Below are positions 5,101 to 64,000 of a stretch of DNA of 64,000 nucleotides, piece after piece (position 1 is the stretch's first letter; each line of letters opens with the position of its first letter). The notes below the pieces were generated by a model that saw nothing but the letters and a program-made list of their open reading frames with translations, did not search any database and was not told the origin of the DNA. Both the position numbers and the translations under genes were made by a program. The stretch covers positions 58,711-122,710 of the forward strand of contig JAFSNB010000016.1 in assembly GCA_017447625.1 (NCBI GenBank), given 5' to 3'. This DNA is from Bacteroidaceae bacterium. GTDB lineage: Bacteria; Bacteroidota; Bacteroidia; Bacteroidales; Bacteroidaceae.

Positions 5101-5140
5101 TTTTGTGGTAGCGTTTTATGTGTTTTGGATTAATCTGCGA

Positions 5141-5170
5141 CAAAGATAGTTAATTAATGTGTAGCTTCAA
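5141..5170 (-). promoter_or_regulatory. Promoter of the GH27 gene
   Basis: On the minus strand the -7 box TATCTTTG is at 5148-5141. A TTG lies at 5170-5168, 19 nt upstream, matching the Bacteroidetes sigma-ABfr promoter. It is divergent from the nrdD promoter. Confidence 0.7.
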
Positions 5171-5241
5171 ATTTTTATGGCGAAAAATTTTCGGGCCAAC
5201 AAAAAATATGCATTTTATTATCGAATTTTAAGTGAAAAAAG

Positions 5242-5272
5242 TTGCTCGTAATAGAAAAATGTAATACCTTTG
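5242..5272 (+). promoter_or_regulatory. Promoter of nrdDG, with a leader of about 115 nt
   Basis: TTG at 5242-5244, a 20-nt spacer and TACCTTTG at 5265-5272. The resulting mRNA leader runs to the ATG at 5393. It contains a near-palindrome around TTCGCGAAGCGCATCGCAA, which could be a hairpin; no known riboswitch was recognised. Confidence 0.72.
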
Positions 5273-5392
5273 CGCTCGATTTGGTTATCCAAAACGGACA
5301 ACTTTTTCGCGAAGCGCATCGCAAAAGTTTTCCAAAAAGTATAACTTCAGACACATAACGAGCTATCAATCAAAAAAGAAAACAACATAAAA

Positions 5393-7489: not shown

Positions 7490-7503
7490 AGGGTCAATGT
7501 TCA

Positions 7504-8001
7504 ATGGCTTTGAAGTACGTAAACACAGGAATTGTTTTTCAGGAGATCCCCGATGAGGTGACCCTTGCGGTCAACATATCGGGGTGTCCCTGTCGCTGCC
7601 CGGGCTGCCACAGCAAATACCTGTGGGAAGATGTCGGCATACCCTTGGATGCAGATGCCATTGATGCTTTCGTAGAGAAATACGGGAACGACATCACCTG
7701 CATCGCATTCATGGGGGGCGATGGCGACCCCGTCGGTGTGAATATGCTTGCGCAGTATATCCACGAGAACCATCCGTTGTACCACGTCGCGTGGTATAGC
7801 GGACGGCTCCGCATCCCAGCAAAGATCTGCAAGACCGACTTCGACTACATCAAGATCGGCCCTTACATCAAGCACCTCGGCCCGCTGAACAGCCCCACCA
7901 CCAACCAGCGCATCTACCGCCAATCCTACGACGGCACCTTCGAGGACATCACCTCCCGCTTCTGGACCCGCCACCACCCCTCATCTGCCATCGCATCTTA
8001 A
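7504..8001 (+). CDS. nrdG: Anaerobic ribonucleotide reductase activating protein
   Basis: A 165-residue small radical SAM enzyme. The cluster motif is C28-x3-C32-x2-C35 in SGCPCRCPGCHSKYLW, followed by the GGDGDP element around residue 75. It generates the glycyl radical on NrdD. The C-terminal tail (TSRFWTRHHPSSAIAS) is longer and less conserved than usual. The start codon lies inside a short GTCAATGTTCAATGG repeat word between nrdD and nrdG, so the repeat supplies the ATG. Confidence 0.95.
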   Translation: MALKYVNTGIVFQEIPDEVTLAVNISGCPCRCPGCHSKYLWEDVGIPLDADAIDAFVEKYGNDITCIAFMGGDGDPVGVNMLAQYIHENHPLYHVAWYSGRLRIPAKICKTDFDYIKIGPYIKHLGPLNSPTTNQRIYRQSYDGTFEDITSRFWTRHHPSSAIAS

Positions 8002-11613: not shown

Positions 11614-11776
11614 TTCTTCAACATTAATTGCCATTAATTAACCCGTTAATTTATCATTAATGAATAATTATATGGACAAATTTATGATAATTATATGTGA
11701 AAAATAAAAGGCTTAGCGCCAGCCATAAATCCTAAAATATAAAATCTTTAAATCATTAAATATATTGATGAATTTA
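11614..11776 (+). repeat. Direct repeat copy A, upstream of the ABC ATPase
   Basis: About 160 bp, closely similar to 12539-12701. Shared blocks include CATTAATGAATAATTATATG, GCGCCAGCCATAAATCC and TCATTAAATATATTGATGAA. The start codon of the ATPase lies in the last block. ACGGATTACACGGATT words precede it. Confidence 0.88.
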
Positions 11777-12427
11777 AAATTAAATAGCCTTCGTCTGAAT
11801 AATGTAATGCCACGTGTGTTCAGCGACCGCGAGAAAGACTTGCAGTCGGACATCTGGTTACACGACGTGGAGTTCCAGCGCGGCAAATACTATCTGGTGG
11901 AAGCAGCGAGCGGAACGGGCAAGTCGTCGCTCTGCGCCTACCTGATTGGCTATCGCCACGACTACAAGGGCACCATCTCGTTCGACGGGCGCGACATAAG
12001 AACCCTCTCCACAGCCGAGTGGGTGGAGCTGCGGCAGCGGTCGCTGAGCCTGCTCTTTCAGGAGCTGCGCCTCTTTCCCGAGCTGACGGCCTGGGAGAAT
12101 ATCGAGGTGAAGAACAGCCTGACGCGGTTCAAAGACGAAAAGACCATTAGCCGCTGGTTCGAAGCCTTCGGCATAGCGGACAAGAAAGAGATCAAATGCG
12201 GTCGAATGAGTTTCGGGCAGCAGCAGCGTGTGGCTATGATTCGCGCTCTGGTGCAGCCGTTCAGTTTCCTGCTGGTCGATGAACCTATAAGCCACCTCGA
12301 CGAGGCAAACGCCCATACGATGGCTGAGATTATGCAGGAGGAGGCTCGTGCTCAGGGTGCCGGAATTATCGTAACGAGCATCGGCAAGCACATGGAAATG
12401 AACTACGATGTGACTTTTACTATGTAA
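11768..12427 (+). CDS. ABC transporter ATP-binding protein, unusual signature and H-loop
   Basis: A 219-residue LolD/FtsE-class ATPase. Walker A is ASGTGKSS, the Q-loop is LLFQELRLFPELTAWEN, and Walker B is FLLVDEPISHLDE. Two positions differ from the norm. The signature reads MSFGQQQR rather than LSGGQQQR, and the H-loop region reads VTSIGKH, with Ser where the switch histidine usually is. It pairs with the permease that follows. The start was taken as the ATG at 11768; a TTG lies just before it. It is flanked on both sides by the same 160-bp repeat, so the gene and its leader form a repeat-bounded cassette. The substrate is unknown. Confidence 0.85.
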   Translation: MNLKLNSLRLNNVMPRVFSDREKDLQSDIWLHDVEFQRGKYYLVEAASGTGKSSLCAYLIGYRHDYKGTISFDGRDIRTLSTAEWVELRQRSLSLLFQELRLFPELTAWENIEVKNSLTRFKDEKTISRWFEAFGIADKKEIKCGRMSFGQQQRVAMIRALVQPFSFLLVDEPISHLDEANAHTMAEIMQEEARAQGAGIIVTSIGKHMEMNYDVTFTM

Positions 12428-12429
12428 GT

Positions 12430-12500
12430 CATTGAACATTGACCATTTTTCGCCTTCGCTCAACAGTACGTGAACATTGACCATTGGCTGCGCGCTGCTA
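12430..12500 (-). repeat. Heptamer arrays with SEGEK-type spacer and GC cap
   Basis: Reversed NTCAATG units, then TTTTCGCCTTCGCTCAACA, then more units and GGCTGCGCGCTGC. The spacer block also occurs inside mnmE at 17490-17520. Confidence 0.78.
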
Positions 12501-12538
12501 TCATAAAAAACAACGGATTGCACGGATTAAACGGATTA

Positions 12539-12701
12539 TCCTTCAACACTAATTGCCATTAATTGGCACGTTAATTTATCATTAATGAATAATTATATGG
12601 ACAAATTTATGATAATTACATGTTAAAAATCCAAAGCATCGCGCCAGCCATAAATCCTAAAATATAAAATCTTTAAATCATTAAATATATTGATGAATTA
12701 T
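12539..12701 (+). repeat. Direct repeat copy B, upstream of the permease
   Basis: The second copy of 11614-11776, roughly nine tenths identical by eye. It supplies the start context TTGATGAATTATGAA of the permease. Confidence 0.88.
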
Positions 12702-13892
12702 GAATTAATTAAGTTGTTGCGGCAACATATCAATATCAGCCAATTCGTGGGGTTCTTCGCCGCGAATCTGGTCGGAATGCTGATAGTGCTCACCAGCATA
12801 CAGTTTTACAAGGATGTCGTTCCCGTGTTCACCGAAGACGACGGACTGATAAGCAATACCTATCTGATTCTCTCCAAGCGAATCACGGCCGTCTCGTCTC
12901 TCCTGGGCGAGGCCAGTTCGTTCTCGCAGGAGGAGATTGACGATATCGCCAGTCAGCGTTTTACAAAACGTGTCGGACGATTCACCGCCTCGCAGTATAA
13001 GGTCTATGCCTCGCTTGGAGTGGGTAGTCTGGGCTTCGGCACAGATATGTTCTTCGAGAGCGTGCCCTCGGATTTTGTGGATACAGATCCTGCCCACTGG
13101 CATTACGATTCCTCGGGACACGAGGTGCCTATTGTCCTGCCGCGCTCTTATCTGGCCATCTATAATTTCGGTTTCGCGCAGAGCCAGTCGCTGCCGCGCC
13201 TCACCGAAGGCGTGGTTGGAATGATACCGTTGGACATCCGACTGCGCGGCAACGGTCGTGAGGAGCGGCTGCGCGGTAAAGTAATCGGATTCTCGTCACG
13301 CCTGAACACCATACTTGTGCCGGAGGATTTCATGACATGGAGCAACGCCCAGTTGGCTCCGGGAGCCGATACCGCTCCGACACGTCTGATTGTGGAAGTC
13401 ACTAATCCCACGGACGATGCCATTGCACGCTTCATCGACGACCGCGGCTATGAAATGGAGAACGACCAGTTGGAGGCCGGACGCCTCACTTATTTCCTGA
13501 AGATTGTTACGGGAGTAGTGCTGGCCGTGGGACTGCTTATCAGCATCCTCTCGTTCTATATCCTGATGCTGAGCGTCTATCTCCTGTTGCAGAAGAACAC
13601 CACAAAACTGGAGAATCTGCTGCTTATCGGTTATTCGCCGGCCCGGGTGAGTCTCCCTTACCAACTGCTGACGATATCCGTGAATTTTCTCGTGCTCGTG
13701 ATTGCCATCGGCTTGCTGCTCTGGATTCGGTCGCAGTATATGAACCTGCTCTGGTCTATGTTCCCGCAGATTGAGGAGGCGTCAATAGTACCGGCAATCT
13801 TGTGTGGCCTCGCCATCTTCGTCGTTGTCTCCATCTTCAACATCATAGCCATTCGTCGCCGCGTCAATCTGATTTGGCAGCACAAGGAGTAA
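12693..13892 (+). CDS. FtsX/MacB-type ABC transporter permease
   Basis: A 399-residue membrane protein. One membrane segment lies near residues 19-38 (FVGFFAANLVGMLIVLTSI). A large extracytoplasmic domain of about 210 residues follows, then three C-terminal segments (VVLAVGLLISILSFYIL; LLTISVNFLVLVIAIGLLL; ILCGLAIFVVVSIFNIIAI). This 1+3 topology is that of FtsX, LolC and MacB permeases. It should form the transporter with the ATPase before it; no membrane fusion protein or outer membrane channel is adjacent. The start is the ATG at 12693 inside repeat copy B. Confidence 0.8.
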   Translation: MNYELIKLLRQHINISQFVGFFAANLVGMLIVLTSIQFYKDVVPVFTEDDGLISNTYLILSKRITAVSSLLGEASSFSQEEIDDIASQRFTKRVGRFTASQYKVYASLGVGSLGFGTDMFFESVPSDFVDTDPAHWHYDSSGHEVPIVLPRSYLAIYNFGFAQSQSLPRLTEGVVGMIPLDIRLRGNGREERLRGKVIGFSSRLNTILVPEDFMTWSNAQLAPGADTAPTRLIVEVTNPTDDAIARFIDDRGYEMENDQLEAGRLTYFLKIVTGVVLAVGLLISILSFYILMLSVYLLLQKNTTKLENLLLIGYSPARVSLPYQLLTISVNFLVLVIAIGLLLWIRSQYMNLLWSMFPQIEEASIVPAILCGLAIFVVVSIFNIIAIRRRVNLIWQHKE

Positions 13893-52109: not shown

Positions 52110-55100
52110 ATGAACCGCATACTAACCACATTCTGCCTTTGTTTCGTAATCACCGTTGTATCCCTTGCCCAGGGCTATAAGGACGTCACCGGACAGTATA
52201 TCAAGAACCCGAATCTGGAGTCAGAGGAGGGGTGGACCTATTCGCGCGTCAACACTAGTGGCGAGACGCTGACCTGGTCCGCCGTGTCCAAGAGCTACTC
52301 CGGTTCGTTCGTCAGCGAGATATATGCAGGCGACGAGCAGAAGTACAAGACTTACGAGGTGTGGCAGAAAATCACATTGCCCCGCGGCACGTACCACCTC
52401 TTCGGACGCGCTTTCCATCGCGATGCGAGCAAAGTGATTATGTATGCGCGCCAGGCTGGAGTGCGCGATTCAGTCAAGGTGGCATCTGTGGCCCGACAGT
52501 TTGAGACCAACCCCAACAGTCTGGATGAGGCTTCCAAGTCGTTCAATGCGAACATGTATCTGAACGACCTGGCTTTCACCGTAGAACAGGAGCAGGCAGA
52601 GGTGACAATAGGCTACGAAGGTGCTTTTACGGGCGGAGGCCAGTGGTTTGCTTTAGGACGTTTCACCCTTTATCAGGTTCAGGATGAGGTGAGTGCAGTC
52701 TATCCTGTGGATGTGACTCCCTCGCTCACACGTTCCTATTATGATTATACAGGTCTTACGGGCTGTTACCGCAAGGCCGACTGCTATATTCATGAGAAAT
52801 ATTCTCAGTCAAACTTCGGCACTGGCGCACTTGTAACCCAGACTTTCAAGGGGCTGGAGAAAGGCTTTTATCAGGTTGTCATTCAGGCACATCTCTGTCA
52901 GGCAAACGGCGTGGGTTCGATGCCTTCGAAGCAGCCGTTCGTCATCGCAGGCAAGGTTCGCGAATACTTTGATGCCGAGTCGAGAAACTCTGTCGCCAAT
53001 GTAGTGGAATATACCCTTTCTGACGTTGAGGTGACAACCGGATCGATGCGCGTTGGTATTTATAACCAGGCCGTTGGCGCCAACTGGGTTCTCTTCAATG
53101 TCAAGAGCGTGAAATATCTGGGCTCGGAGCTCGCTTCGTCAAAAGTGACCCTTAGCCGCAGCGAGCAGTTCACCCTTGGCAGCGTTCTTCGGGCTGACGT
53201 GGAGACAGATATCCCCCTGCGAGCCGGACAGTTGAACAGCATCTCCCTGCCGTTCACGCTGACTGCCGCCCAGACGGCTTCCACATTCACCCACGTCTAT
53301 ACTCTCGCAGGCGTTGAGGCCGGAGCGGGCGGAGCTCTTACGGGAACCCTTATTCCAGCCGACAGCATCGAGTGTGGCCGCGCCTATTTCGTCGAGGTCG
53401 GCGAGGACAAGCTCTTCTCTGCCACCGACGTGTTCCTGCAGACCGCAGCTCCCGTGGAGCTGAATACCATCTGGGGAGAGACGTCCGTTGGCGGTCGCTA
53501 CGGTCTGACAAACTTACACGACACCTACACTTTGGGCGACGACGGAAAGCTCCATTATGTGGCAGACCAGACCGATGTTCCGGGATTCATAGCCACCGTG
53601 ACCCTTCCCGCCTCAATGAACGCCTCGCATCAGCCGATAACCCTGGCACCCGTGGATTTCGCAAATGCCCGTTTCACAGCCAACCTTGAGAACATTCAGG
53701 CCCGACATTTCATCAACGACAACACATACACCGCTTCCTCGGCCTCAGTCGTGGATTCTTACAATGTGTCGCCTCCCGACCGTCGCGACCAGCCCTGTGG
53801 CGTGAATATCCCCGTGCCTTCGACCTCGGCCGACAGCATCACCCTGACCATAACCGCCCTCGGCGAAGGGTCTCTCCCCCCCACGGGGGGAGTCGGAGAG
53901 GGGCTTTCAATGCCCACCTCCCAACTCGTCACAGTCTATAACCTCTATCCTCAGCAGGATTACACCTATACTGTTGAGGCTGCCGGTGAGGTCATCAGTC
54001 GTGGACAGTTCACCACTACGGGTCGTCTGCGCATGATCAAGGCCGACTCGGGCAGCAACATCCGTGACCTCGGAGGCTGGCGTACGGCCGATGGCAGCCG
54101 TCTGCGCTACGGACTTATCTATCGTGGTGGCGAGCTCAACGGCGGCCACGCCATGAACGAGGCCGATTTGGACGAACTGCGCCGACTCGGTTTCGCCGCA
54201 GAGCTGGATCTGCGCGAGGATGTGGATATCAATGACTTCGCGGTAAACGGCGTACCTCTCAGCAACGGTTCCGCTCTCGGCGCGGACGTGCCATATATCT
54301 ATGAGAATCAGCACCGCTTCGGCGACGATGCCTTGCGCATCGACACCGCCTGCTGGCGCACCGCGTTCCAGTTCGTAGTCGAGAACCTGCGTGCCGGTCG
54401 CAGCGTGTTCTTCCATTGCATCTGGGGAGCCGACCGCACGGGTTGCATGGCTTTCCTCCTTGAAGGTCTGCTCGGTCTGCCCGTTGACCAACTCTATAAG
54501 GATTATGAGCTGACCACATTCTCCATTGCCGGAACCCGTCAGAAGAGCGGCATAGACAGCAAGCTGGATTATATCAACACGATGACAGGCAGCACGTTGC
54601 AGCAGCGTTTCTTCAATTATCTTCTGAATGTCGTCGGCGTTCCGGGCGATGACCTCCTCTATCTCATCGAACGCATGGTTGACGGCGAAAGCAGCATAAC
54701 CAAATCCGACCTGGCTCTGATGGTTTCATCCTCAGCCACTGTGCTGCAGGATATCTCTTCGCTTACCGCCATTTGCGCCAGCGGATCCCGCATTGCCGAC
54801 GGCGCACACGCCACTCTGACAGACGAGCTCGGCAAGTCCGTGGATGTAGATATGCGTGTCGAGGGCCTCGCCCTGCGCTTCGCACACAGTCCGCTCAAGC
54901 CCGCCACCTCTTACACCTTTACGGTTCCCGTTGGTTCTGTACTGAATGCAGCAGGGCAGGGGAACGCCAAGGCCCTGACCCTGTCGTTCCGCACTCCGGT
55001 TGTGTTCGACGGCGAATACTATCTCTATCTGCCCACTCTCGACCGCTTCCTCGGACGCGGCTCTAACTATGGCACACGAGCCATCTCTGAGAGATACGGC

Positions 55101-56204
55101 GTTCCCGCAGCCGTAACCACCGACGTTATGGGTGTAACCAACATTCAGTATCTTGACAGCCGCCAATATCTTGGTTCAGACGGATACACAGACAAGGATG
55201 CTGGCTTCAACACCATCAACTGGAAGCTGGAGCAGGCCGACGCCGAACATCCTGACTGGATGGCCCTGCACTCGGACAACGGCTCCTATTTATATTTATA
55301 TGAAGACGCACGCGCACGCGTAGAGGCTGCCACCCTGGCTGAAGCCACCCCGGTAGAATTTGTGGGTATCGATAGACAGAAGGCCATAGTTCAGCAGCAG
55401 CAGCAGGAGAATATCCTTCAGGCTGCACAGGCTGCCGGCATCGAGGCCGCTGATGTGAATGAACTCAACGAGATTCTTGCCGAAGGTTACGTCGAGGTCA
55501 AGAACATGGCTACAATAAAAGGTGCAAAATCCGGCAGCACCACATACTGGGTTCTGACTGAACCTACAGACCTGCAGAACGGCACTTATAATGGCTACAA
55601 CGTGGGCTCTTACGGCGGTGAACTTTACAAGAAACACGGCTTTGTCAGTCAGACCGTCACCGTGAAGCAGCCCGGCCTCTACAAGCTGACACTCACGGCG
55701 TTATACCGCCAAGGCACCGATACCCGATGCTACGAACTCGCCCAGCAGGGATATGTCCTTAGCAACGCCTACGTCACCGTGAACGACGTCTATTACGCTC
55801 AGGTGCCCGACTGGTATTCCGACTGTGCCGGCACAACCAACCCCAACAACACCGATCAGGCTCGCGCACTTATGACAGCCGGTAAATACTCTATGAGCGT
55901 CTATGCTTATATCGGCGAGGACCTGAAGGCCACAATCGCAGTAAACTGCCCGGGCTATGTATCCCCCGGCTGGTGTCTCTTCAACAACTTCGCCATGACC
56001 CTGTACCGCAGCAAAGAGGACGCCATTGAAGAAATTAAAAATGAAAAATTAAAAAGTAAAAATGAGGCAGTCTATGACCTGATCGGCAGAAGGGTTAATG
56101 GTTCAAGGGTTCAAGAGTTCAAGAGTTCAAGGGGTTCAATGTTCAATGAAAAACTCCCGAAGGGAGTTTACATCAAGGACGGCAAAAAAGTACTAATTAA
56201 ATAA
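52110..56204 (+). CDS. Very large exported protein with a tyrosine phosphatase domain
   Basis: 1364 residues with a signal peptide (ILTTFCLCFVITVVSLAQ). Residues 25-340 form two galactose-binding-like beta-sandwich modules (LPRGTYHLFGRAFHRD; LEKGFYQVVIQAHLC). About residues 630-880 are a Y_phosphatase3-type domain: NIRDLGGWRTADGSRLRYGLIYRGGEL and HCIWGADRTGC with catalytic C770 and R776. Ig-like and lectin-like regions follow, and a third beta-sandwich near 1160-1310. The tail is AVYDLIGRRVNGS...LPKGVYIKDGKKVLIK. It is probably secreted or surface-bound and removes phosphate from phosphotyrosine or phosphoinositide; the partner is unknown. Three repeat pieces are in frame. It lies 12 nt before the GH30 gene, so the two are likely co-expressed. 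Confidence 0.78.
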   Translation: MNRILTTFCLCFVITVVSLAQGYKDVTGQYIKNPNLESEEGWTYSRVNTSGETLTWSAVSKSYSGSFVSEIYAGDEQKYKTYEVWQKITLPRGTYHLFGRAFHRDASKVIMYARQAGVRDSVKVASVARQFETNPNSLDEASKSFNANMYLNDLAFTVEQEQAEVTIGYEGAFTGGGQWFALGRFTLYQVQDEVSAVYPVDVTPSLTRSYYDYTGLTGCYRKADCYIHEKYSQSNFGTGALVTQTFKGLEKGFYQVVIQAHLCQANGVGSMPSKQPFVIAGKVREYFDAESRNSVANVVEYTLSDVEVTTGSMRVGIYNQAVGANWVLFNVKSVKYLGSELASSKVTLSRSEQFTLGSVLRADVETDIPLRAGQLNSISLPFTLTAAQTASTFTHVYTLAGVEAGAGGALTGTLIPADSIECGRAYFVEVGEDKLFSATDVFLQTAAPVELNTIWGETSVGGRYGLTNLHDTYTLGDDGKLHYVADQTDVPGFIATVTLPASMNASHQPITLAPVDFANARFTANLENIQARHFINDNTYTASSASVVDSYNVSPPDRRDQPCGVNIPVPSTSADSITLTITALGEGSLPPTGGVGEGLSMPTSQLVTVYNLYPQQDYTYTVEAAGEVISRGQFTTTGRLRMIKADSGSNIRDLGGWRTADGSRLRYGLIYRGGELNGGHAMNEADLDELRRLGFAAELDLREDVDINDFAVNGVPLSNGSALGADVPYIYENQHRFGDDALRIDTACWRTAFQFVVENLRAGRSVFFHCIWGADRTGCMAFLLEGLLGLPVDQLYKDYELTTFSIAGTRQKSGIDSKLDYINTMTGSTLQQRFFNYLLNVVGVPGDDLLYLIERMVDGESSITKSDLALMVSSSATVLQDISSLTAICASGSRIADGAHATLTDELGKSVDVDMRVEGLALRFAHSPLKPATSYTFTVPVGSVLNAAGQGNAKALTLSFRTPVVFDGEYYLYLPTLDRFLGRGSNYGTRAISERYGVPAAVTTDVMGVTNIQYLDSRQYLGSDGYTDKDAGFNTINWKLEQADAEHPDWMALHSDNGSYLYLYEDARARVEAATLAEATPVEFVGIDRQKAIVQQQQQENILQAAQAAGIEAADVNELNEILAEGYVEVKNMATIKGAKSGSTTYWVLTEPTDLQNGTYNGYNVGSYGGELYKKHGFVSQTVTVKQPGLYKLTLTALYRQGTDTRCYELAQQGYVLSNAYVTVNDVYYAQVPDWYSDCAGTTNPNNTDQARALMTAGKYSMSVYAYIGEDLKATIAVNCPGYVSPGWCLFNNFAMTLYRSKEDAIEEIKNEKLKSKNEAVYDLIGRRVNGSRVQEFKSSRGSMFNEKLPKGVYIKDGKKVLIK
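53874..53904 (+). repeat. Single 31-nt GC-rich element in frame in the phosphatase gene
   Basis: Same 31-nt element as at 42659 and 48760, translated as LPPTGGVGEGL between the N-terminal modules and the phosphatase domain. Confidence 0.9.
56031..56150 (+). repeat. Repeat arrays in the tail of the phosphatase protein
   Basis: AAAAAGT-type units at 56031-56065 lie just before the YDLIGRR motif. 8-nt TTCAAGNG units and TTCAATG units at 56095-56147 lie between GRRVNGS and LPKGVYI. Confidence 0.85.
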
Positions 56205-56216
56205 GACTCAAGTATC

Positions 56217-58874
56217 ATGATTCGTTCATTGGGAAAAATATCTGTGGGCATCCTGCTGATGGCCCTCTCCATAAACTATACTGTGGCTCAGCCAACTGTG
56301 AGAATCGATGCCACAAATACACATCAGCATATCACCGGTTTCGGCGGATTCGTCTGTTCGCCGTCGTTCCAGTATAACCACATGTCCACCGCCGAGATTA
56401 AGAAAGTGTGGGGCAAGACGAGCACCCTGGGCTGCAACATCATGCGCCTCTATATCCCCATTGGGCGGAATGCCTGGAGTCAGTCGCTGGCAACAGCCCA
56501 ACTGGCCAAACAGATGGGGCTTATAGTGTTTGCCTCTCCTTGGGGACAACCCGCCGAGTGGAAGACCAACGGCACCAGCAACGCCAAGAACGAGGACGGC
56601 ACCACAGGCAGTCTGAAACGCGAGAACTGGGCAGACTATGCACAGTATCTTGAGGATTATGTTCAGTACCTGCGCCAGAACGGTGTGGAACTCGATGCCA
56701 TCAGCATTCAGAACGAACCGGACTGGCCTGCCACCTATGCAGGCTGTCTCTGGTCGGCCGATGAGATAGCAGAGTTTGTGAAACTCTACGGTTCTGGCAT
56801 CAGCTGCAAGGTTATGGCGCCGGAGACGCTCTCCGTGAGCGACAACTATGCCAACGCCCTGAACAAGACGGACGTGCTTGCCGGTTTCGACATCTACGGA
56901 GGTCACCAGTACGGCGGCATTCAGTCGGCCTACAAGAATCTGGCCAAGAAAGGCAAGGAGATTTGGATGACTGAATATCTTATCAACTGGAACGAGGTAG
57001 AGAACAACACCCGCAACTTCGATTTCTCCAAGGATTTCTTCAATTTCTTTCGTGCCATAAATGTCTGTATGCTGGGCGATTTCAATGCCTGGATTCATTA
57101 TGCAGCCAAGCGCTATTATGGCTTCCTCGGCGACGGACAGCGAGGTGCAGGCTCATCAGGCTCAGTGACTAAACGCGGCTATATCATGGCTCATTTTGCC
57201 CGGTACGCCACAGGCAAGACACGTATAGACATCGACTTCGGAGCAACTCCGCTCGAGGGCTCGGCCTATATCTCAGAGTCGGGCGACACCGTTGTGGCTG
57301 TGGTTGCCAACGAGAGCGACGAGGCCACTGAGGTGACGTTGGATTTACCCTTCTATACAGAACTGGGAGAACAGCGCATCACTGGCAAGAACCAGAATTT
57401 CAAACTCACAACCCTAACGCAGGATGCTGAGACGTGCCGCCCTGTGGTCACTATACCCGCCCAGAGCGTCGGCTCCGTGCTCTTTGTGAAGAGCCGTGAC
57501 CGCCAGCCCTCTGACATGAAGGGCAGCAGCACACGTTTCGACCGCCTCGACGATATGCTGGCTACGAAGTCAGGCTTCGGCACCACATTTAAGATGAGCG
57601 GCAAGACTAAGACCTTCGATGTGTCGAATCCTCTGATATCTTCACGCACAACCCTGAGCAGCGGCTATGTCGCCCTTGATGACCGCTACACCCAGCTCGT
57701 TATGCAGATTAAGAAAGTCACCTCCACAGGCAACCTCAACGCCGGAGCCACCACTCTCACATACGTCAACGCCAAGGGAGCTTTGTCCACACATGACTAC
57801 GGACGCGTTGATATGAGCCGTGCGGAGAACTTCAACCTCGTCTTTGACCTCTCTCCGCAGACTCTCGAAGACGGCTGCATTGGCCTGATTTCGATGACTT
57901 GCGACAACAGTTATTCGCACCTGACCATAACATTCGGAGACGTATATCTGACTGCCGGCACACTCTCGCCCTATGCCGCAACCCTCAGCGGCGCCTACGT
58001 GGAGGACGACAGTTATGTGCAGGAATTCACCACTGATGCCCGTTGCACAAGCATCAATATGACGGCTGTGACTCAGCTGCCAGCCGCCTTGCCGTGGCTT
58101 GACGGAAGTAACCGCGTAGCCTTCTTGCCTGCGGGCAGCGAAATCCAGGGTACGAATATAGTTACTGATGGCCTGTGCGCTCAGCTCGCTCTCACCGCCG
58201 ACGGCGGCGACTTCCGTCCGAAGCAGACATTCACCGCCGCATCGGCATCGCTTACCACAACCGTAGAGGGCTTCCGCCTGTTGATGATTCCGTTTGCTGC
58301 CCAAAAGCCTGAAGGTGTCCACATCTATGGCCTCACCAGTGACTTGGATATTTGCCCCATCATGGAGGAACCAGGAGATCCTATACCTGCCCACACACCC
58401 GTGCTGGTGAGTGGCAACGGCACCGTGACCTTCACAGGCGGGGGTGAAATATCATTCACGAAATCTTCAGTCGCAGCCGTCATGCGTGGCACATACACAG
58501 CTGTTCCGCTTTGTGTCGGTGACTATGTCCTTGCTGAGCAAGACGGACAATGGGGTTTCCGCCGCGTCGAGACCGCCACGACCCTGCAGCCCTTCGATGT
58601 CTATGTCACTCTGGATTCACAGGACTCCTTCGTACCGTTGAACCTCAGCGGCACAAGCGGAGTTGAATCAATTCATAATGCACAATTCATAATGCATAAT
58701 GGGGCTGGCGCGTTGTTTGACCTCAGCGGACGACGTATTAGCAGTTCAAGAGGTTTAAGAAGTTTAAGCAGTTTAAGTGGTTCAGGTTCAACTACAAGCT
58801 CTGTGTCCTCTGTGCCCTCTGTGCTCCCGAAGGGAGTTTACATCAAGGACGGCAAAAAAGTTTTGGTTCCATAA
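56217..58874 (+). CDS. Exported GH30 glycosidase (xylanase/glucuronoxylanase-like)
   Basis: 885 residues, signal peptide ILLMALSINYTVAQ. The catalytic domain (about 25-430) opens VRIDATNTHQHITGFGGFVCSPSFQ. The acid/base is E167 in SIQNEPDWPATYAGC and the nucleophile E253 in IWMTEYLINWN. The barrel is followed by the small GH30 beta-domain (VVAVVANESDEATEVTLDLPF). The remaining 450 residues hold beta-rich modules without a clear family. Tail: ALFDLSGRRISSS...LPKGVYIKDGKKVLVP. It probably cuts beta-1,4-xylan or a related glycan outside the cell. Several repeat arrays lie in frame near the C-terminus. Confidence 0.87.
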   Translation: MIRSLGKISVGILLMALSINYTVAQPTVRIDATNTHQHITGFGGFVCSPSFQYNHMSTAEIKKVWGKTSTLGCNIMRLYIPIGRNAWSQSLATAQLAKQMGLIVFASPWGQPAEWKTNGTSNAKNEDGTTGSLKRENWADYAQYLEDYVQYLRQNGVELDAISIQNEPDWPATYAGCLWSADEIAEFVKLYGSGISCKVMAPETLSVSDNYANALNKTDVLAGFDIYGGHQYGGIQSAYKNLAKKGKEIWMTEYLINWNEVENNTRNFDFSKDFFNFFRAINVCMLGDFNAWIHYAAKRYYGFLGDGQRGAGSSGSVTKRGYIMAHFARYATGKTRIDIDFGATPLEGSAYISESGDTVVAVVANESDEATEVTLDLPFYTELGEQRITGKNQNFKLTTLTQDAETCRPVVTIPAQSVGSVLFVKSRDRQPSDMKGSSTRFDRLDDMLATKSGFGTTFKMSGKTKTFDVSNPLISSRTTLSSGYVALDDRYTQLVMQIKKVTSTGNLNAGATTLTYVNAKGALSTHDYGRVDMSRAENFNLVFDLSPQTLEDGCIGLISMTCDNSYSHLTITFGDVYLTAGTLSPYAATLSGAYVEDDSYVQEFTTDARCTSINMTAVTQLPAALPWLDGSNRVAFLPAGSEIQGTNIVTDGLCAQLALTADGGDFRPKQTFTAASASLTTTVEGFRLLMIPFAAQKPEGVHIYGLTSDLDICPIMEEPGDPIPAHTPVLVSGNGTVTFTGGGEISFTKSSVAAVMRGTYTAVPLCVGDYVLAEQDGQWGFRRVETATTLQPFDVYVTLDSQDSFVPLNLSGTSGVESIHNAQFIMHNGAGALFDLSGRRISSSRGLRSLSSLSGSGSTTSSVSSVPSVLPKGVYIKDGKKVLVP
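58667..58830 (+). repeat. Repeat arrays in the tail of the GH30 protein
   Basis: ATNCATA units and GGGGCTGGCGCG cap at 58667-58712 (IHNAQFIMHNGAGA). 9-nt GTTTAAGNN units at 58743-58785 and 9-nt CTCTGTGNC units at 58799-58827 follow, giving RSLSSLSG and SSVSSVPSV. Confidence 0.87.
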
Positions 58875-59187
58875 CAAGCCTCAAGCAAATAGCGAAGCTC
58901 CATATTCTTAATAGTTAAGCATTGCCAATAAGGCGGGTATGTCGAGTGGTTGCTTGTTGTTCTTCATACATATATAAAAAAAGTTCCACCCAGGTACGCT
59001 ACATTCCCTGAAGAGAAGAGAAGCGGTGGTGGACTCTGTCGGGTGCAAAGATAAGCATTTATTTTGAATTAAGCAATTTTTTACCCTCTTTTCTGCCTGT
59101 TTTTATGTAAAAACGGTTAAATCTGCACCTCTTTTTAAAGTTTTTTGCAAAATGATAAGGTGATTTGAGAAAAATTGTGTAAATTTG
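58875..59187. other. Gap between the GH30 gene and the RiPP leader
   Basis: AT-rich, no gene seen. An AAAACGGTTAAATC stretch and several T-runs occur. The Bacteroidetes-type -7 box TAAATTTG is at 59180-59187; no TTG at the matching -33 position. Confidence 0.5.
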
Positions 59188-59732
59188 CCGCGACTAAGCC
59201 AGTCCAAGGCTGCGACTAAGCGAGAGAATACCTAAGTTTACTTGAACTATTCCGAGCGAAAGCAGTCTCGCCCGAAAGGGCACGCTGTCGGAGGCCAGCA
59301 ATGGCTGATGACTATGAGGGCAGGGCGGGTCAAAACAAACATTGATGTAATCCTGAGGCTGAGAACACCGTTTGTAAGGACAGCTGAAGGGAAAGGACGT
59401 TTTCTGAACGTTACCTGTCTGTGATGTCAAATCTCGCAAATTTGAATCTTTCTACAGCGGTAATGCAACGAAGCGTTCGCGTGGGTGTATTATATCCCGG
59501 CCGTTCCGTAGCTATCATTGTATCTTGATGGTTAATGTCTGCGCCGAACTATATAATGACTCGGCGTGGGCTGGCTTGCGTTGCTTATCCTTAGAAAGAG
59601 GCAATGCGAGAGCCTGACATCAGGGATAGGCGCGGAGGAACAAACTCCCACGTCTTTTTTATTTCCAGACCTGAAACAGAATATTAACGCTGAATTTGGG
59701 AGTTCATAGGCATCTTTAAGTTCTATACAATT
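59188..59732 (+). ncRNA. Long structured leader before the CXXX-repeat precursor, candidate regulatory RNA
   Basis: About 545 nt without a credible gene. GCGACTAAGC is directly repeated at 59190 and 59212. GCGCCGA (59541-59547) pairs with TCGGCGT (59561-59567). A 12-bp hairpin with a 2-nt bulge spans 59573-59614. CCCACG (59647-59652) is followed by TCTTTTTT. Two copies of CGTGGG (59480-59485 and 59565-59570) could pair with CCCACG; the second overlaps the GCGCCGA hairpin, so the structures exclude each other. This arrangement suits an attenuator or an independently terminated small RNA. It did not match tmRNA, RNase P RNA or a tRNA that I know. Confidence 0.5.
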
Positions 59733-59969
59733 ATGCAGAAGAACAAGAAGAACGAGGAACTCCAGTCACGTCGTGAGTTCTTTAAGAGAGCAGCTAAGGG
59801 CGCTCTGCCCATCATTGCTGGTGCCATTTTGGCTTCTAACCCTGCAATCTCCGAGGCTGCAAATGCCATGTCTTGTGCCGGTTGTAACAACCGTTGCATG
59901 AACTCGTGTTTCAACACCTGCTACAACAGCTGTCGAGGTAAGTGCTCTGGTGCAAGTAACAGGAACTAA
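59733..59969 (+). CDS. CXXX-repeat RiPP precursor peptide with a Tat-like leader
   Basis: 78 residues. Residues 12-18 are SRREFFK, a twin-arginine-like motif. It is followed by a basic stretch and a hydrophobic segment (GALPIIAGAILA, 23-34), with AANA at 42-45, a possible signal peptidase site. The remaining core holds cysteines at 48, 51, 55, 59, 63, 67 and 71. Six of them are in exact C-x3-C register (NNR, MNS, FNT, YNS, RGK between them), with Asn recurring before the third spacer residue. It ends SGASNRN. The Cys register, with the two maturase genes downstream, identifies it as the target of the CXXX-repeat radical SAM system. The product is presumably a peptide with thioether or other Cys-based cross-links; the chemistry is inference. 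Confidence 0.9.
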   Translation: MQKNKKNEELQSRREFFKRAAKGALPIIAGAILASNPAISEAANAMSCAGCNNRCMNSCFNTCYNSCRGKCSGASNRN

Positions 59970-59976
59970 ACTTGTT

Positions 59977-60017
59977 AAAGGGAGTCGTGCTTACTAAGTT
60001 TGTGTACGACTCCCTTT
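59977..60017 (+). terminator. Intercistronic hairpin between precursor and maturase
   Basis: A perfect 12-bp stem, AAAGGGAGTCGT (59977-59988) with ACGACTCCCTTT (60006-60017), then CTGTCCTTTTTATT. It probably stops most transcripts, so that precursor is made in excess of the enzymes. Confidence 0.82.
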
Positions 60018-60045
60018 CTGTCCTTTTTATTAAGACGTTCAATTT

Positions 60046-61257
60046 ATGGATAATATAAAAGATTCTGCCAAAGGCTGGAGAGAAGAAGAATCAAAAAATG
60101 TAACCTTCATAGTTACAAAAGATTGCCAGCTCATTTGTAAATACTGTTATCTCGTGGGCAAAAACACTCATGAGAGGATGCCTTTTGAAACAGCCAAGCA
60201 ATCAATAGACTATCTGCTTGATACGCCTGAATTCAGTAGTGAACCCGCTGTCGTTTTTGAATTTATTGGAGGAGAGCCCTTCCTTGAAATAGACCTTATC
60301 GACAAAATCTGCGATTATATAAAAACTCAGTTGTTCGTCAAAAATCATCATTGGTTTAATGCTTATAGATTTAGTTTTTCAACAAATGGAATTAACTATC
60401 ATACCAAGAAAGTTCAAGATTTTATAAAGAAAAATTACAGCCATATAAGCATAGGAATAACTATTGACGGTACTCAAAAAAAGCATGACTTGAACAGAAT
60501 CTATAAGAATGGAAAAGGGTCGTATGATGATGTGCTAAAGAACATTCCTTTGTGGTTGGAACAATTTCCTGGGGCAGGTACTAAAGTAACAATTAGTAGC
60601 GCAGATATACCATATGTATGTGAAAGCGTATTGCACCTATATTCTCTTGGAATAGAAGAAGTAAATATCAACTGTGTTTACGAGAATGTTTGGAAAGAAG
60701 GCGATGATATCCTATTTGAGAATCAACTTATGAAACTTGCTGATGAGATAATCGACAACAACCTCTATAAGAAATATTCTTGTTCGTTCTTCTCAACTAA
60801 AATTGGTAAACCAGTAAATGTATTGCTAGAGAATCACAATTTTTGTGGCGCAGGAAAAATGCTTTCTATAGATGCCGCAGGAAATTTCTATCCTTGTACG
60901 CGCTTTGCACAATACTCTTTGCGTGATAAAAAAGCCATAATCATAGGAGACATGCACAAAGGAATTGACAAGAACAAATTACGTCCTTTTCTTACATTGG
61001 ATCGATTTACCCAATGTCCTCGTGAATGTTTGGAATGTGAAGTTGCTGGTGGTTGTGGCTGGTGTTCTGGTGAGAATTACGATGCTGCAGTAAGTGCTAC
61101 TATTTTCCAGCGTTCGATGGCAAATTGTTTGATGCATAAAGCACGTGTAAGGGCAAACAATTACTATTGGAATAAACTCTATCGTAAATTAGAGATAGAG
61201 GGAATAAGCGAGAATGAAATTGCTTCTCAGTGTATTCATCATAATAAAATTTGTTAA
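60046..61257 (+). CDS. Radical SAM/SPASM peptide maturase, CXXX-repeat target type
   Basis: 403 residues. The radical SAM cluster is C27-x3-C31-x2-C34 (KDCQLICKYCYLVG). FEFIGGEPFLEID is the SAM-binding GGE region, and ISIGITIDGTQKKHDLNR a later barrel strand. The C-terminal SPASM part has C267, C284, C324, C328, C331, C337, C340 and C361, enough for two auxiliary [4Fe-4S] clusters. Such enzymes install radical-based cross-links in ribosomal peptides. The gene lies right after the precursor and its hairpin. Its DNA is visibly AT-rich (AAA, ATA and TTT codons dominate), unlike the glycosidase genes before it, which suggests transfer. The exact bond made is not known. Confidence 0.92.
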   Translation: MDNIKDSAKGWREEESKNVTFIVTKDCQLICKYCYLVGKNTHERMPFETAKQSIDYLLDTPEFSSEPAVVFEFIGGEPFLEIDLIDKICDYIKTQLFVKNHHWFNAYRFSFSTNGINYHTKKVQDFIKKNYSHISIGITIDGTQKKHDLNRIYKNGKGSYDDVLKNIPLWLEQFPGAGTKVTISSADIPYVCESVLHLYSLGIEEVNINCVYENVWKEGDDILFENQLMKLADEIIDNNLYKKYSCSFFSTKIGKPVNVLLENHNFCGAGKMLSIDAAGNFYPCTRFAQYSLRDKKAIIIGDMHKGIDKNKLRPFLTLDRFTQCPRECLECEVAGGCGWCSGENYDAAVSATIFQRSMANCLMHKARVRANNYYWNKLYRKLEIEGISENEIASQCIHHNKIC

Positions 61258-61262
61258 GATCT

Positions 61263-62267
61263 ATGCTACAATATCTAATCGTACAACTTTGTGACACAAG
61301 TACATCGTACTGTCACTATGAGAATCCAAGCAGAACACCTCGGTTAATTAGTTTAGAAGACTTAAACGCAGGCATTCTCTTCGCAATGAAGGAGAATCTT
61401 ATGATTCAATTCGTTTATCCAGACGAAGAGTTACCTTTATCCTATAAAAAAGCGGTAGATTCAATAGATCATAACACGATTGTCTCTTCATTATGTGAAG
61501 ACCAGAACCTTGTTGCAGAAGCGGATATTGTAATATTTCATGAATGGACGGGGTTAGACTACTTTGCATTCAATATGGAGCAAGCATACGTCCTCAGAAC
61601 ATCTAAAGATGATTTTTTTGACAGATATGCGCAACTAAAATGGGTATTTCCACGCGTAAAAAGATTCAATATCGTATTTACGGATATTGAGAGTTTTTCG
61701 GAAGATGATTACAAACATTATAAAAAAATACTTAATCATTTATCTGAAAATATAGAAAAGCTACTTATTGAAGGTCTGCCAATTCAGTTCAATTTACTCA
61801 CTGACCGACTGACTCTTTCCACAATGAACAATTGTAATGCAGGCTGGAAAACAATTACTTTGGCTCCAAATGGACGGTTTTATCCTTGCCCAGCATTCTA
61901 TTTTGATGATGATTCTCTGATTGGTGATGTTCATAAAGGTTTAGAAATAAAGAATCCTCAGCTTTATAGTTTCGACTACGCACCAATTTGTAGACATTGT
62001 GATGCTTATCAATGCAAACGATGTGTTTGGCTTAACAAGAAACTTACATTAGAGATAAACACCCCATCACATGAGCAATGTGTGATAAGTCATCTTGAAA
62101 GAAATGCTTCAAGAAAAATACTCAAGAATTCAAATTTAAAAAAAGAGATGAAAGATCTTTCTGAAATACCAGAAATTGATTATCTCGATCCTTTTGATGT
62201 AAGAGAGCAATGGGATTTTGAATTATTACAGCAAGAGTTAATAAAATTCCATAAAGAAAATTACTAG
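61263..62267 (+). CDS. CXXX repeat peptide maturase partner (SPASM-like, no radical SAM cluster)
   Basis: 334 residues from the ATG at 61263; a TTG start at 61251 would overlap the previous gene. N-terminus MLQYLIVQLCDTSTSYCHYENPS, then ILFAMKENLMIQFVYPDEELP, which I recognise as the CXXX-repeat maturase partner family. There is no CxxxCxxC. The C-terminal third has a SPASM-like cysteine set: CNAGWKTITLAPNGRFYPCPAF, then CRHCDAYQCKRC and CVISHL. It probably forms a complex with the radical SAM enzyme, binding clusters or the leader peptide, rather than acting on SAM itself. It is AT-rich like its neighbour. Confidence 0.87.
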   Translation: MLQYLIVQLCDTSTSYCHYENPSRTPRLISLEDLNAGILFAMKENLMIQFVYPDEELPLSYKKAVDSIDHNTIVSSLCEDQNLVAEADIVIFHEWTGLDYFAFNMEQAYVLRTSKDDFFDRYAQLKWVFPRVKRFNIVFTDIESFSEDDYKHYKKILNHLSENIEKLLIEGLPIQFNLLTDRLTLSTMNNCNAGWKTITLAPNGRFYPCPAFYFDDDSLIGDVHKGLEIKNPQLYSFDYAPICRHCDAYQCKRCVWLNKKLTLEINTPSHEQCVISHLERNASRKILKNSNLKKEMKDLSEIPEIDYLDPFDVREQWDFELLQQELIKFHKENY

Positions 62268-62270
62268 AAA

Positions 62271-64000
62271 ATGAGCAAAATCTACAAAGTATTATGGGGC
62301 TTAAGTGTTTTTACTATGCCCATCTATGCTCAGACAACAGCAGAACTTGACAGTGTGCCAGAACTTGATGAAGTGCTGGTTACTGGCTATCGCACGATTT
62401 CACGTGAGCGGGCTGCAGGCAGTTATGATATTGTAACGAGCAAGGAGATTGAGGAACGCCACACGCTGTCGACTTCTTCCATTTTCGACGGTATTGTAGC
62501 TGGTATGCAAGGACAATCGGACGGGAGAGGCGGAACTAAATTCACTATCCGTGGTACAGGTACAATGTATGCAGATGAACTTCCGCTGATTGTTGTAGAT
62601 GGCTTTCCGATTATCGATGTGCCAGACTGGCAGTATTCTCGTAGTGCAGCACTGGCGGCTTTGGAAAAGATAAACTCAAACGACATTGAGAGTGTGACCG
62701 TCTTAAAGGATGCGGCGGCGGCTTCTATCTGGGGAGCTCGGGCTTCAAACGGTGTGGTTGTCATCAAAACGAAAGGCGGAACAAGCAACGGTCAGAAACT
62801 GGAGGTCAGAGCAAGTACACAACTTTCTTTCTCAGGCAAGCGAGACGTTGATCAGCTGACAAACCTTGCCACTTCTGCAAATACGGTTAACTATCTGCGT
62901 ATTCTTTCTGAACGCGGTTGGGATACATCCATGTATTATGGCGACCAATACAGTTTGAAGGAACCGGTTTCTTGGGCAGAGCTTTATCTCTACAAAGGTC
63001 AGTACGGCATGATGTCTCCCGAAGAAGTGGATGCAGCGTTAAGTCGTTTGGCCTCGCTTGACAACCGCAAGCAGATAAAGAAATATATGCTGCAATCGCC
63101 TGTTACGTCCCAGACGAACGCTTCAGTAGGCTATAACAATGGTGGCTACCAGTCGAACTTGTCCTTACAATATCAGTATGACTATGGGGATTTCATTGGC
63201 AAGAGTAACAACCAGTTTATGATCAACTGGAACAACAAGTATCGCTTCAATAAACATTTGGCCGTCAATGTTGGTTTGCATCTGCAAAGCGCAAAAGCAA
63301 AGAGTTCCGTTATCAACGAGAACGATCTCACAAAGATTTCTCCATACGAAATGCTTCTTGATGATAATGGGAACTACGTGCCACAGGTAGGCATTGTCAA
63401 TCCTGATGTCCTAGCGAACTATTTTGACGTGTCACAATTGGCTTATAACAACCTTGACTATAATATTCTTCAAGAGGCTCGCAATACCAATAATGTAAAG
63501 AAGAATTTGGGCTATCGTGCGCAAGTCGGTTTGCAATGGGATATAGTTGATGGCTTGACATTCAATTCAAGATTCCAATATGAGGGCAACAAGTTCAATA
63601 CGAAAACAACCTATGGCGAAGAATCATTCTTCACACGTTGGAATGTTGACTATCTGACCCCGACCGATTGGGACGGGACTATTCTTGGTCCATCTGCATT
63701 GCCAAAAGGAGATATTAGTTACAAGCAAGAAGGGAAGTATGAAAGTTGGGTGTTCCGCAATGACTTTACATACAACCACACCTTTGCTGATAAGCATGAG
63801 TTGACGGCTATTCTTGGAAACGAGGTGTCGAAATACAAGCGCCATCTTTGGAATTTGCCATACACGTATGCAGGTACAACACCTGTTTTCGGATATTATG
63901 GTTCGCTGGCAGGATATGAAGACATCATTGAAGGTCTGCCTGAGAACGGCAAACAATATCTTTCAGAAACTTGGGAGAACAATCGCTTTGTGTCGTTCTA
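62271..64000 (+). CDS. SusC/RagA family TonB-dependent outer membrane receptor, 3' end missing
   Basis: At least 576 codons; the window ends inside it. Signal peptide YKVLWGLSVFTMPIYAQ. The plug starts almost at once: LDEVLVTGYRTISRERAAGSYDIVTSKEIE, QSDGRGGTKFTIRGTGTMYADELPLIVVDGFPI and NDIESVTVLKDAAAASIWGARASNGVVVIKTK. Strands of the beta-barrel follow (SQTNASVGYNNGGYQSNLSLQYQYDYG). The carboxypeptidase-like domain common at the front of SusC proteins is absent. It starts 3 nt after the maturase partner, so it belongs to the RiPP operon. It may import or export the modified peptide or a metal complex of it; a SusD partner could lie beyond the edge. Confidence 0.9.
   Translation, partial: MSKIYKVLWGLSVFTMPIYAQTTAELDSVPELDEVLVTGYRTISRERAAGSYDIVTSKEIEERHTLSTSSIFDGIVAGMQGQSDGRGGTKFTIRGTGTMYADELPLIVVDGFPIIDVPDWQYSRSAALAALEKINSNDIESVTVLKDAAAASIWGARASNGVVVIKTKGGTSNGQKLEVRASTQLSFSGKRDVDQLTNLATSANTVNYLRILSERGWDTSMYYGDQYSLKEPVSWAELYLYKGQYGMMSPEEVDAALSRLASLDNRKQIKKYMLQSPVTSQTNASVGYNNGGYQSNLSLQYQYDYGDFIGKSNNQFMINWNNKYRFNKHLAVNVGLHLQSAKAKSSVINENDLTKISPYEMLLDDNGNYVPQVGIVNPDVLANYFDVSQLAYNNLDYNILQEARNTNNVKKNLGYRAQVGLQWDIVDGLTFNSRFQYEGNKFNTKTTYGEESFFTRWNVDYLTPTDWDGTILGPSALPKGDISYKQEGKYESWVFRNDFTYNHTFADKHELTAILGNEVSKYKRHLWNLPYTYAGTTPVFGYYGSLAGYEDIIEGLPENGKQYLSETWENNRFVSF

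Follow-up and report, generated by a model that had tools for sequence, protein, structure and literature searches.

The window analysed here, a stretch of 64,000 nucleotides from a Bacteroidaceae bacterium (assembly GCA_017447625.1, contig JAFSNB010000016.1, positions 58,711 to 122,710), carries towards its right-hand end a gene cluster for a ribosomally synthesised and post-translationally modified peptide (RiPP) of the CXXX-repeat family. Three intact open reading frames (ORFs) lie in tandem at 59733–62267, encoding a precursor peptide, a radical S-adenosylmethionine (SAM)/SPASM peptide maturase and a SPASM partner that lacks a SAM cluster. The explanation that we favour, and consider rather probable from comparison with related clusters, is that the Cys repeats would be cross-linked in the cytoplasm, probably as thioethers, and that the product would then be exported by a dedicated twin-arginine translocation (Tat) translocase.

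The maturase gene (60046–61257, + strand, 403 aa) encodes a protein scoring 583.9 bits against TIGR04115 (E value 1.5e-175, cut-off 350), while the partner (61263–62267, + strand) scores 239.1 bits against TIGR04119 (E value 3e-71, cut-off 150). An earlier reading of the letters (the original prediction) had placed the gene trio at 59733–62267 and named both enzyme families; all three ORFs were found at these coordinates, and the profile searches passed the curated cut-offs of both families. In the maturase, the CX3CX2C motif (C27, C31 and C34) and the SPASM-type Cys residues (C267, C284, C328, C331, C337, C340 and C361) are invariant in 32/32 aligned sequences. The partner has no CX3CX2C SAM-cluster motif, and its Cys residues (C191, C209, C243, C246, C251, C254 and C273), invariant in 48/48, show SPASM-like spacing; its score against the Pfam SPASM model is just above the cut-off (22.4 vs 21.5 bits). 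Its ORF was listed from TTG 61251, but relatives begin at the equivalent of ATG 61263 (MLQYL...), and translation most likely starts there, five bases past the maturase stop. We did not retain the idea that the partner is an entire pseudo radical SAM protein, its N-terminal part being unproven as a degenerate barrel: hhalign aligned it with the maturase profile only over partner residues 134–273, against the second half of the enzyme (E value 0.00025, probability 43 %). The cluster had also been described as complete, which did not hold. The final base of the window is base 122710 of the 122710-base contig, and the contig ends inside a SusC-type gene, which leaves the gene set truncated at its right-hand side, ahead of any TIGR04116-like gene of the kind present in 70/70 near relatives with at least 3 kb downstream.

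The precursor gene (59733–59969, + strand) encodes 78 aa. Its match to TIGR04117 is below the curated cut-off (33.3 vs 50 bits, E value 3.9e-8), yet its architecture of a leader followed by C-x3 repeats fits that family. The leader (residues 1–45, 59733–59867, + strand) contains the Tat-type motif SRREFFKRAAKGALPI, with the twin arginine ahead of a hydrophobic stretch (SRREFFKRAAKGALPIIAGAILA), and ends in a signal-peptidase-like ANA directly before MSCAGC. Cleavage at this putative site would release a core of 33 aa, MSCAGCNNRCMNSCFNTCYNSCRGKCSGASNRN (residues 46–78, 59868–59966, + strand), with a monoisotopic mass of 3555.33 Da when unmodified and reduced. The precursor has seven Cys (residues 48, 51, 55, 59, 63, 67 and 71), separated by one C-x2-C step and then five C-x3-C steps, which agrees with the six Cys in C-x3 register of the original prediction. 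The same source had overlooked the export side, namely that the leader is a Tat-type signal and that many related clusters encode Tat proteins, and its 'Cys, Asn and aromatic pattern' did not survive comparison with relatives, as Asn and aromatic residues are not features of the family. In 152 distinct precursors Cys recurs at every fourth residue in 2431/2817 Cys–Cys steps; over the C-x-x-x-C steps (n=2435), x1 is mostly Ser, Thr or Lys, x2 is Gly in 36 %, Ser in 14 %, Thr in 10 % and Asn in just 10 %, and x3 is Ser, Gly or Thr in 71 %.

For comparison we assembled 82 loci, comprising the window, a second cluster on contig C35 of the same genome and the best-scoring 80 of 280 confirmed relatives; this is not a random sample, and locus genes were detected with profiles built from these same loci. 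Candidate precursors were selected solely by a C-x3-C-x3-C-x3-C pattern on the strand of the maturase. Among the 144 ORFs so obtained, 131 contain xRRxF; of the 13 that do not, three in L036 have RR followed by other residues, and the remainder include one ORF truncated where its locus ends and several with the appearance of fragments or chance ORFs. A wider set with duplicates included gave a similar picture (162/179 ORFs, 107 loci). At least one RR precursor occurs in 79/82 loci, and in the three exceptions (L078, L092 and L096) the radical SAM gene is less than 600 bases away from the end of a contig. The leader statistics refer to the 152 distinct precursors, which were preselected for RR and for F at +3: F is found at +4 in 98 % and K at +5 in 92 %, followed by A at +7 (80 %) and +8 (83 %), L at +12 (89 %) and P at +13 (95 %). 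This conservation exceeds what a Tat signal requires, so the same stretch probably also serves in maturase recognition. Where a lipobox-like site is missing, 77/103 RR precursors have [AVST]xA no more than 14 residues ahead of the first Cys.

The precursors vary in number and form. Up to five RR precursors were counted per locus, and additional CXXX precursor genes follow the partner gene in several loci (L014 3609–3983, L015 80–469, L090 10113–10706 and similar). A 317-aa CXXX precursor in L020 (2627–3580) and L041 (5480–6433) has more than 100 non-repeat residues between its lipobox-like site and the Cys repeats.

Tat genes are closely linked to these clusters. The maturase is followed by at least 3 kb in 70/82 loci, the window not being among them. 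Of these, 53 encode TatA and 52 TatC, always on the same strand as the maturase; about 0.2–0.3 Tat genes would be expected by chance in 70 stretches of 8 kb (kinship ignored). Across all 82 loci, TatC is present in 55, and its median distance past the maturase is 1478 bases (range 1351–7604, 47 within 2000). The type of leader tends to follow this linkage: lipobox-like sites were present in 21 and absent from 73 precursors of Tat-linked loci, compared with 15 and 4 in Tat-less loci (Fisher P=4.8e-6, kinship not corrected). The Tat label switches eight times over the maturase tree and so does not reflect a single event. Genome-wide correlation of Tat presence was rejected as evidence, TatC being over its cut-off in 176/200 relatives; at least two TatC matches were found in 9/30 genomes with the system and 9/170 without (P=0.0002, kinship not corrected).

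The linked TatCs also form a lineage of their own. In a tree of 89 TatC sequences (59 cluster-linked and 30 not), 51 of the 59 linked sequences fall in one clade of 52 (support 100/99), whose sole unlinked member comes from a genome (G061) with a maturase match 147 bases from a contig start. The TatC of locus L035, a Phocaeicola metagenome-assembled genome and the window's nearest relative (82 % identity), is truncated by a contig end and was not included in the tree. In BLAST searches it shows 51–80 % identity to the 52 rows of the linked clade, the unlinked row within it being 51 % identical, and at most 44 % to the other 37.

L035 provides the bridge between the window and these Tat genes. 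Its order is precursor, maturase, partner, SusC, SusD and a 355-aa protein with a DnaJ-like CxxCxGxG part, then a TIGR04116-like gene, an 86-aa lipoprotein-like protein with CxxC repeats, TatA and TatC, and its maturase forms a long, well-supported pair with that of the window (stem 1.16, support 100/100). In the window, a SusC/RagA TonB-dependent outer-membrane receptor gene (62271–63998, + strand, profile match), of which the contig end leaves the 5′ part only, begins 3 bases past the partner stop; the fragment scores 217.2 bits against a whole-protein cut-off of 368 and passes the signature model TIGR04057 (57 bits, cut-off 46.2). The junction of partner and SusC, followed by SusD, recurs in L035, and among the 82 loci scanned these two are the only ones with a SusC relative after the partner. 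In the window's assembly, which is 73 % complete, the L035 SusC query matched only the window's own contig and the L035 SusD query gave no match. TIGR04116 is absent from the window, which stops at the contig end, and its sole match in the assembly lies on contig C35 as part of the other CXXX cluster. The missing genes may lie just past the contig end in the order seen in L035, and we infer that the window's own operon continues in this way.

Two exported-looking proteins with CxxCxGxG or CxxC motifs are encoded within the L035 cluster (11735–12802 and 13090–13350) and perhaps handle thiols or metal. The DnaJ-zinc-finger-like part of the 355-aa protein is below the Pfam cut-off, and a relative of this protein is present in L103.

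Maturase, partner and TIGR04116-like protein appear to act together. The partner and the TIGR04116-like gene each occur, on the maturase's strand, in 70/70 near relatives with at least 3 kb downstream; TIGR04115 and TIGR04119 are fused in one 721-aa ORF in L174, both over cut-off, and TIGR04119 and TIGR04116 in one 510-aa ORF each in L171 and L172, again over cut-off. The fusions and the constancy of the trio argue for a three-protein complex. The TIGR04116-like protein of L035 returned only weak Pfam matches (HTH_38, 18.1 bits, cut-off 27; DUF5663, 13.1 bits, cut-off 23.7), and a TIGR04116 alignment searched against solved structures gave no convincing match (best E value 0.15).

Comparison within the genome and with distant clusters suggests that the export route tends to change together with the leader type, a link for which we have numbers only in the 82-locus part. 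The second CXXX cluster of the window genome (L004, G000:C35, 8539–11250) encodes a maturase 72 % identical to that of the window, a TIGR04116 protein over cut-off and a precursor with RR and a lipobox-like site, with no Tat genes nearby. Five distant clusters were also read, from the four other TIGR04119-positive genomes among 296 of the phylum and from G157. L170, L173 and L174 have an RR-less precursor and a same-strand ABC exporter in the cluster; L174 additionally encodes an S8 peptidase, and a TonB-type receptor gene follows its TIGR04116 gene. L171 and L172 have a precursor with RR and a lipobox-like site, and these two clusters returned no hit with the Tat profiles and no ABC exporter on inspection by eye. 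All five genomes encode one TatC elsewhere; the RR-less precursors thus occur in genomes that could use Tat.

On this basis we propose that the precursor would be made with a leader doubling as a twin-arginine signal peptide. In the cytoplasm, the TIGR04115 enzyme, the TIGR04119 partner and the small TIGR04116 protein (where present) would cross-link the Cys repeats, most likely as Cys thioethers, with the partner most likely relaying electrons or binding substrate through its own auxiliary Fe–S clusters. The finished, compact peptide would cross the inner membrane via a Tat translocase, whose TatA and TatC are cluster-encoded in most near relatives, and signal peptidase would free a core of about 33 residues, sister clusters having a lipobox in the core instead. 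In the window's lineage, the SusC/SusD pair of the same cluster may move the peptide across the outer membrane. A more specific version, in which a RiPP class with a Tat signal for a leader uses its own Tat translocase as a maturation gate (only cross-linked peptide being exported) and SusC/SusD provide passage through the outer membrane, out or in, is tentative, and we lean slightly away from it.

Several observations weigh against this proposal. No Tat gene is visible in the window, the assembly (73 % complete) yielded no TatC, and L035 is the single locus that appears to tie the window to a cluster-encoded Tat; in the maturase tree, moreover, the pair formed by these two loci groups with six Tat-less loci. 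Among near relatives, 17/70 clusters have no TatA or TatC nearby and must use another Tat or another route, and 8/59 linked TatCs fall outside the main clade, six in a clade of their own and those of L092 and L132 elsewhere. TatC occurs in 148/170 relatives without the CXXX system, so Tat presence alone is uninformative. TIGR04116 is missing in 2/5 distant genomes, G328 and G239 (99 % completeness), and its inconstancy lowered our confidence slightly. No NCBIfam model matches the RR-less L170 precursor, which was assigned from its Cys pattern and position. As for the chemistry, homology is the sole pointer to thioethers.

That pointer comes from the neighbouring families. The solved structure best matched by sequence is the SCIFF maturase 5wgg (E value 4e-20, residues 17–368 vs 97–442), an entry titled Radical SAM domain protein that we take to be CteB; the window enzyme, by contrast, lacks most of the ~80 residues preceding the radical SAM domain of 5wgg and scores 105 bits against a SCIFF model cut-off of 425. 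Its next-best NCBIfam models after TIGR04115 are PapB (NF047865), CcpM, quinohemoprotein and nif11-like peptide maturases and then SCIFF, all below their cut-offs, and Cys thioethers in the product are plausible on these grounds. PapB, the second-best model, was matched at 203.6 bits (cut-off 340). PapB links Cys to Asp within CX3D motifs (PMC9413430); its turnover requires intermolecular electron transfer, and the substrate thiol is bound by one of the auxiliary clusters (PMC10470005). Residues 46–78 of the window precursor include neither Asp nor Glu, and hence none of the CX3D or CX3E motifs of PapB ranthipeptides, which excludes PapB-type Cys–Asp links for this peptide. Further differences from PapB/PapA are the Tat-type leader and the separate SPASM partner devoid of a SAM cluster. 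By analogy, the partner may fill the intermolecular electron-transfer role, a substrate-binding role being just as possible.

The closest known system is the CXXX system of NCBIfam (TIGR04114–TIGR04119), with which the window shares a maturase and partner passing the TIGR04115 and TIGR04119 cut-offs and, in its relatives, TIGR04116 over cut-off; unlike that system, the window has a SusC gene after the partner and ends before any TIGR04116 gene. Bufferins and other RiPPs modified by multinuclear non-haem iron-dependent oxidative enzymes are likewise Cys-rich and have precursors with a signal peptide, but they depend on a different enzyme class and on Sec rather than Tat. The authors who describe them point to the problem of export preceding modification and propose that the signal peptide belongs to the recognition sequence (PMC12452194); neither 'Tat' nor 'twin-arginine' appears there as a whole word. 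The GG-leader RiPPs of Bacteroidales come from the same bacterial order, in which radical SAM enzymes are common, and according to a survey (PMC10352776) they use GG motifs and peptidase-containing ABC exporters (PCAT), in contrast to the RR leaders and Tat described here. As whole words, 'CXXX', 'Tat' and 'twin-arginine' are absent from that survey.

A different product is conceivable from the same genes. The radical SAM enzyme might alter only a few residues (e.g. by epimerisation or oxidation) and leave most Cys free to bind metal or an Fe–S cluster in the cytoplasm, the metal-loaded peptide being folded and therefore sent through Tat. Tat classically serves cofactor-loaded proteins, the recurrence of Cys at every fourth residue would suit a metal ladder, and SusC/SusD in the window's lineage and the TonB-type receptor beside L174 would suit re-import of a metallophore. 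The usual metal motif, however, is C-x2-C rather than C-x3-C, named thioether maturases are among the nearest other enzyme models, and SusC relatives after the partner are confined to two of the 82 loci; we regard such a metal-binding peptide as unlikely.

Two further explanations would remove the export role or the product itself. In an ordinary CXXX system the RR could serve maturase recognition only, with the Tat genes as mere neighbours and export by Sec or another route. The leader is indeed conserved past the Tat consensus, in particular at L-P (+12/+13, 89 and 95 %), a K-T-L-P-G stretch is retained in the RR-less precursors of L170 and L173, and the 17 Tat-less clusters point the same way. 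The linkage of Tat genes in 52–53/70 clusters, the separate TatC clade and the ABC exporters found where RR is missing are nevertheless hard to explain without a role in export, and we give this explanation less credit still than the metal-binding peptide. Alternatively, the window copy might be a degenerate or orphan cluster without a product, its third gene and Tat genes being absent: TIGR04116 is present only as the C35 copy, no TatC was found and the L035 SusD has no match in the assembly. Against this stand the contig end inside SusC, the incompleteness of the assembly, the intact reading frames and the presence of the missing genes after SusC–SusD in L035, and we consider degeneration very improbable. 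Cross-linking followed by Tat export remains our preferred explanation for the cluster.

Tat moves folded cargo. If our proposal is correct, a RiPP that uses Tat would have a built-in answer to a problem posed by RiPPs with Sec signals, namely what delays export until modification is finished (PMC12452194). It would also represent a natural Tat system dedicated to one substrate class, and a radical SAM pair whose stand-alone SPASM member may provide intermolecular electron transfer of the kind reported for PapB (PMC10470005). The CXXX family itself is already catalogued, and the cluster is a real and correctly named instance of it; its value lies in what the relatives indicate, namely that this family of radical SAM RiPPs has Tat-type leaders, mostly accompanied in near relatives by its own Tat translocase. 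Among relatives of the window genome the system is not uncommon, TIGR04115 being over cut-off in 30/200 (window genome included), while across the phylum TIGR04119 is over cut-off in 5/296 genomes, again counting that of the window. In the open PMC literature searched, we found no description of a linked Tat translocase in CXXX clusters, no paper naming TIGR04115 and none in which 'twin-arginine' occurs together with 'radical SAM' and 'SPASM'; most subscription papers and preprints lie outside this scope, and prior notice is possible.

Between precursor and maturase lies a 14-bp stem-loop (59977–60017, + strand; minimum free energy −24 kcal/mol, z −4.7), a possible attenuator or processing site. 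The corresponding region of L035 has a different sequence and a similar fold (z −7.1). We rejected the hairpin as a family feature, as z was −3 or below in only 14/65 loci, and an Rfam scan of 58800–62400 returned no match above thresholds. Locus L113, titled Clostridium sp., is probably a misbinned contig, its TatC and maturase falling among Bacteroidales sequences. Finally, upstream of the cluster the window encodes two large proteins (52110–56204 and 56217–58874), one with a Y_phosphatase3 domain and one GH30-like, both ending in a PKGVYIKDGKKVL tail that resembles type IX secretion sorting tails.

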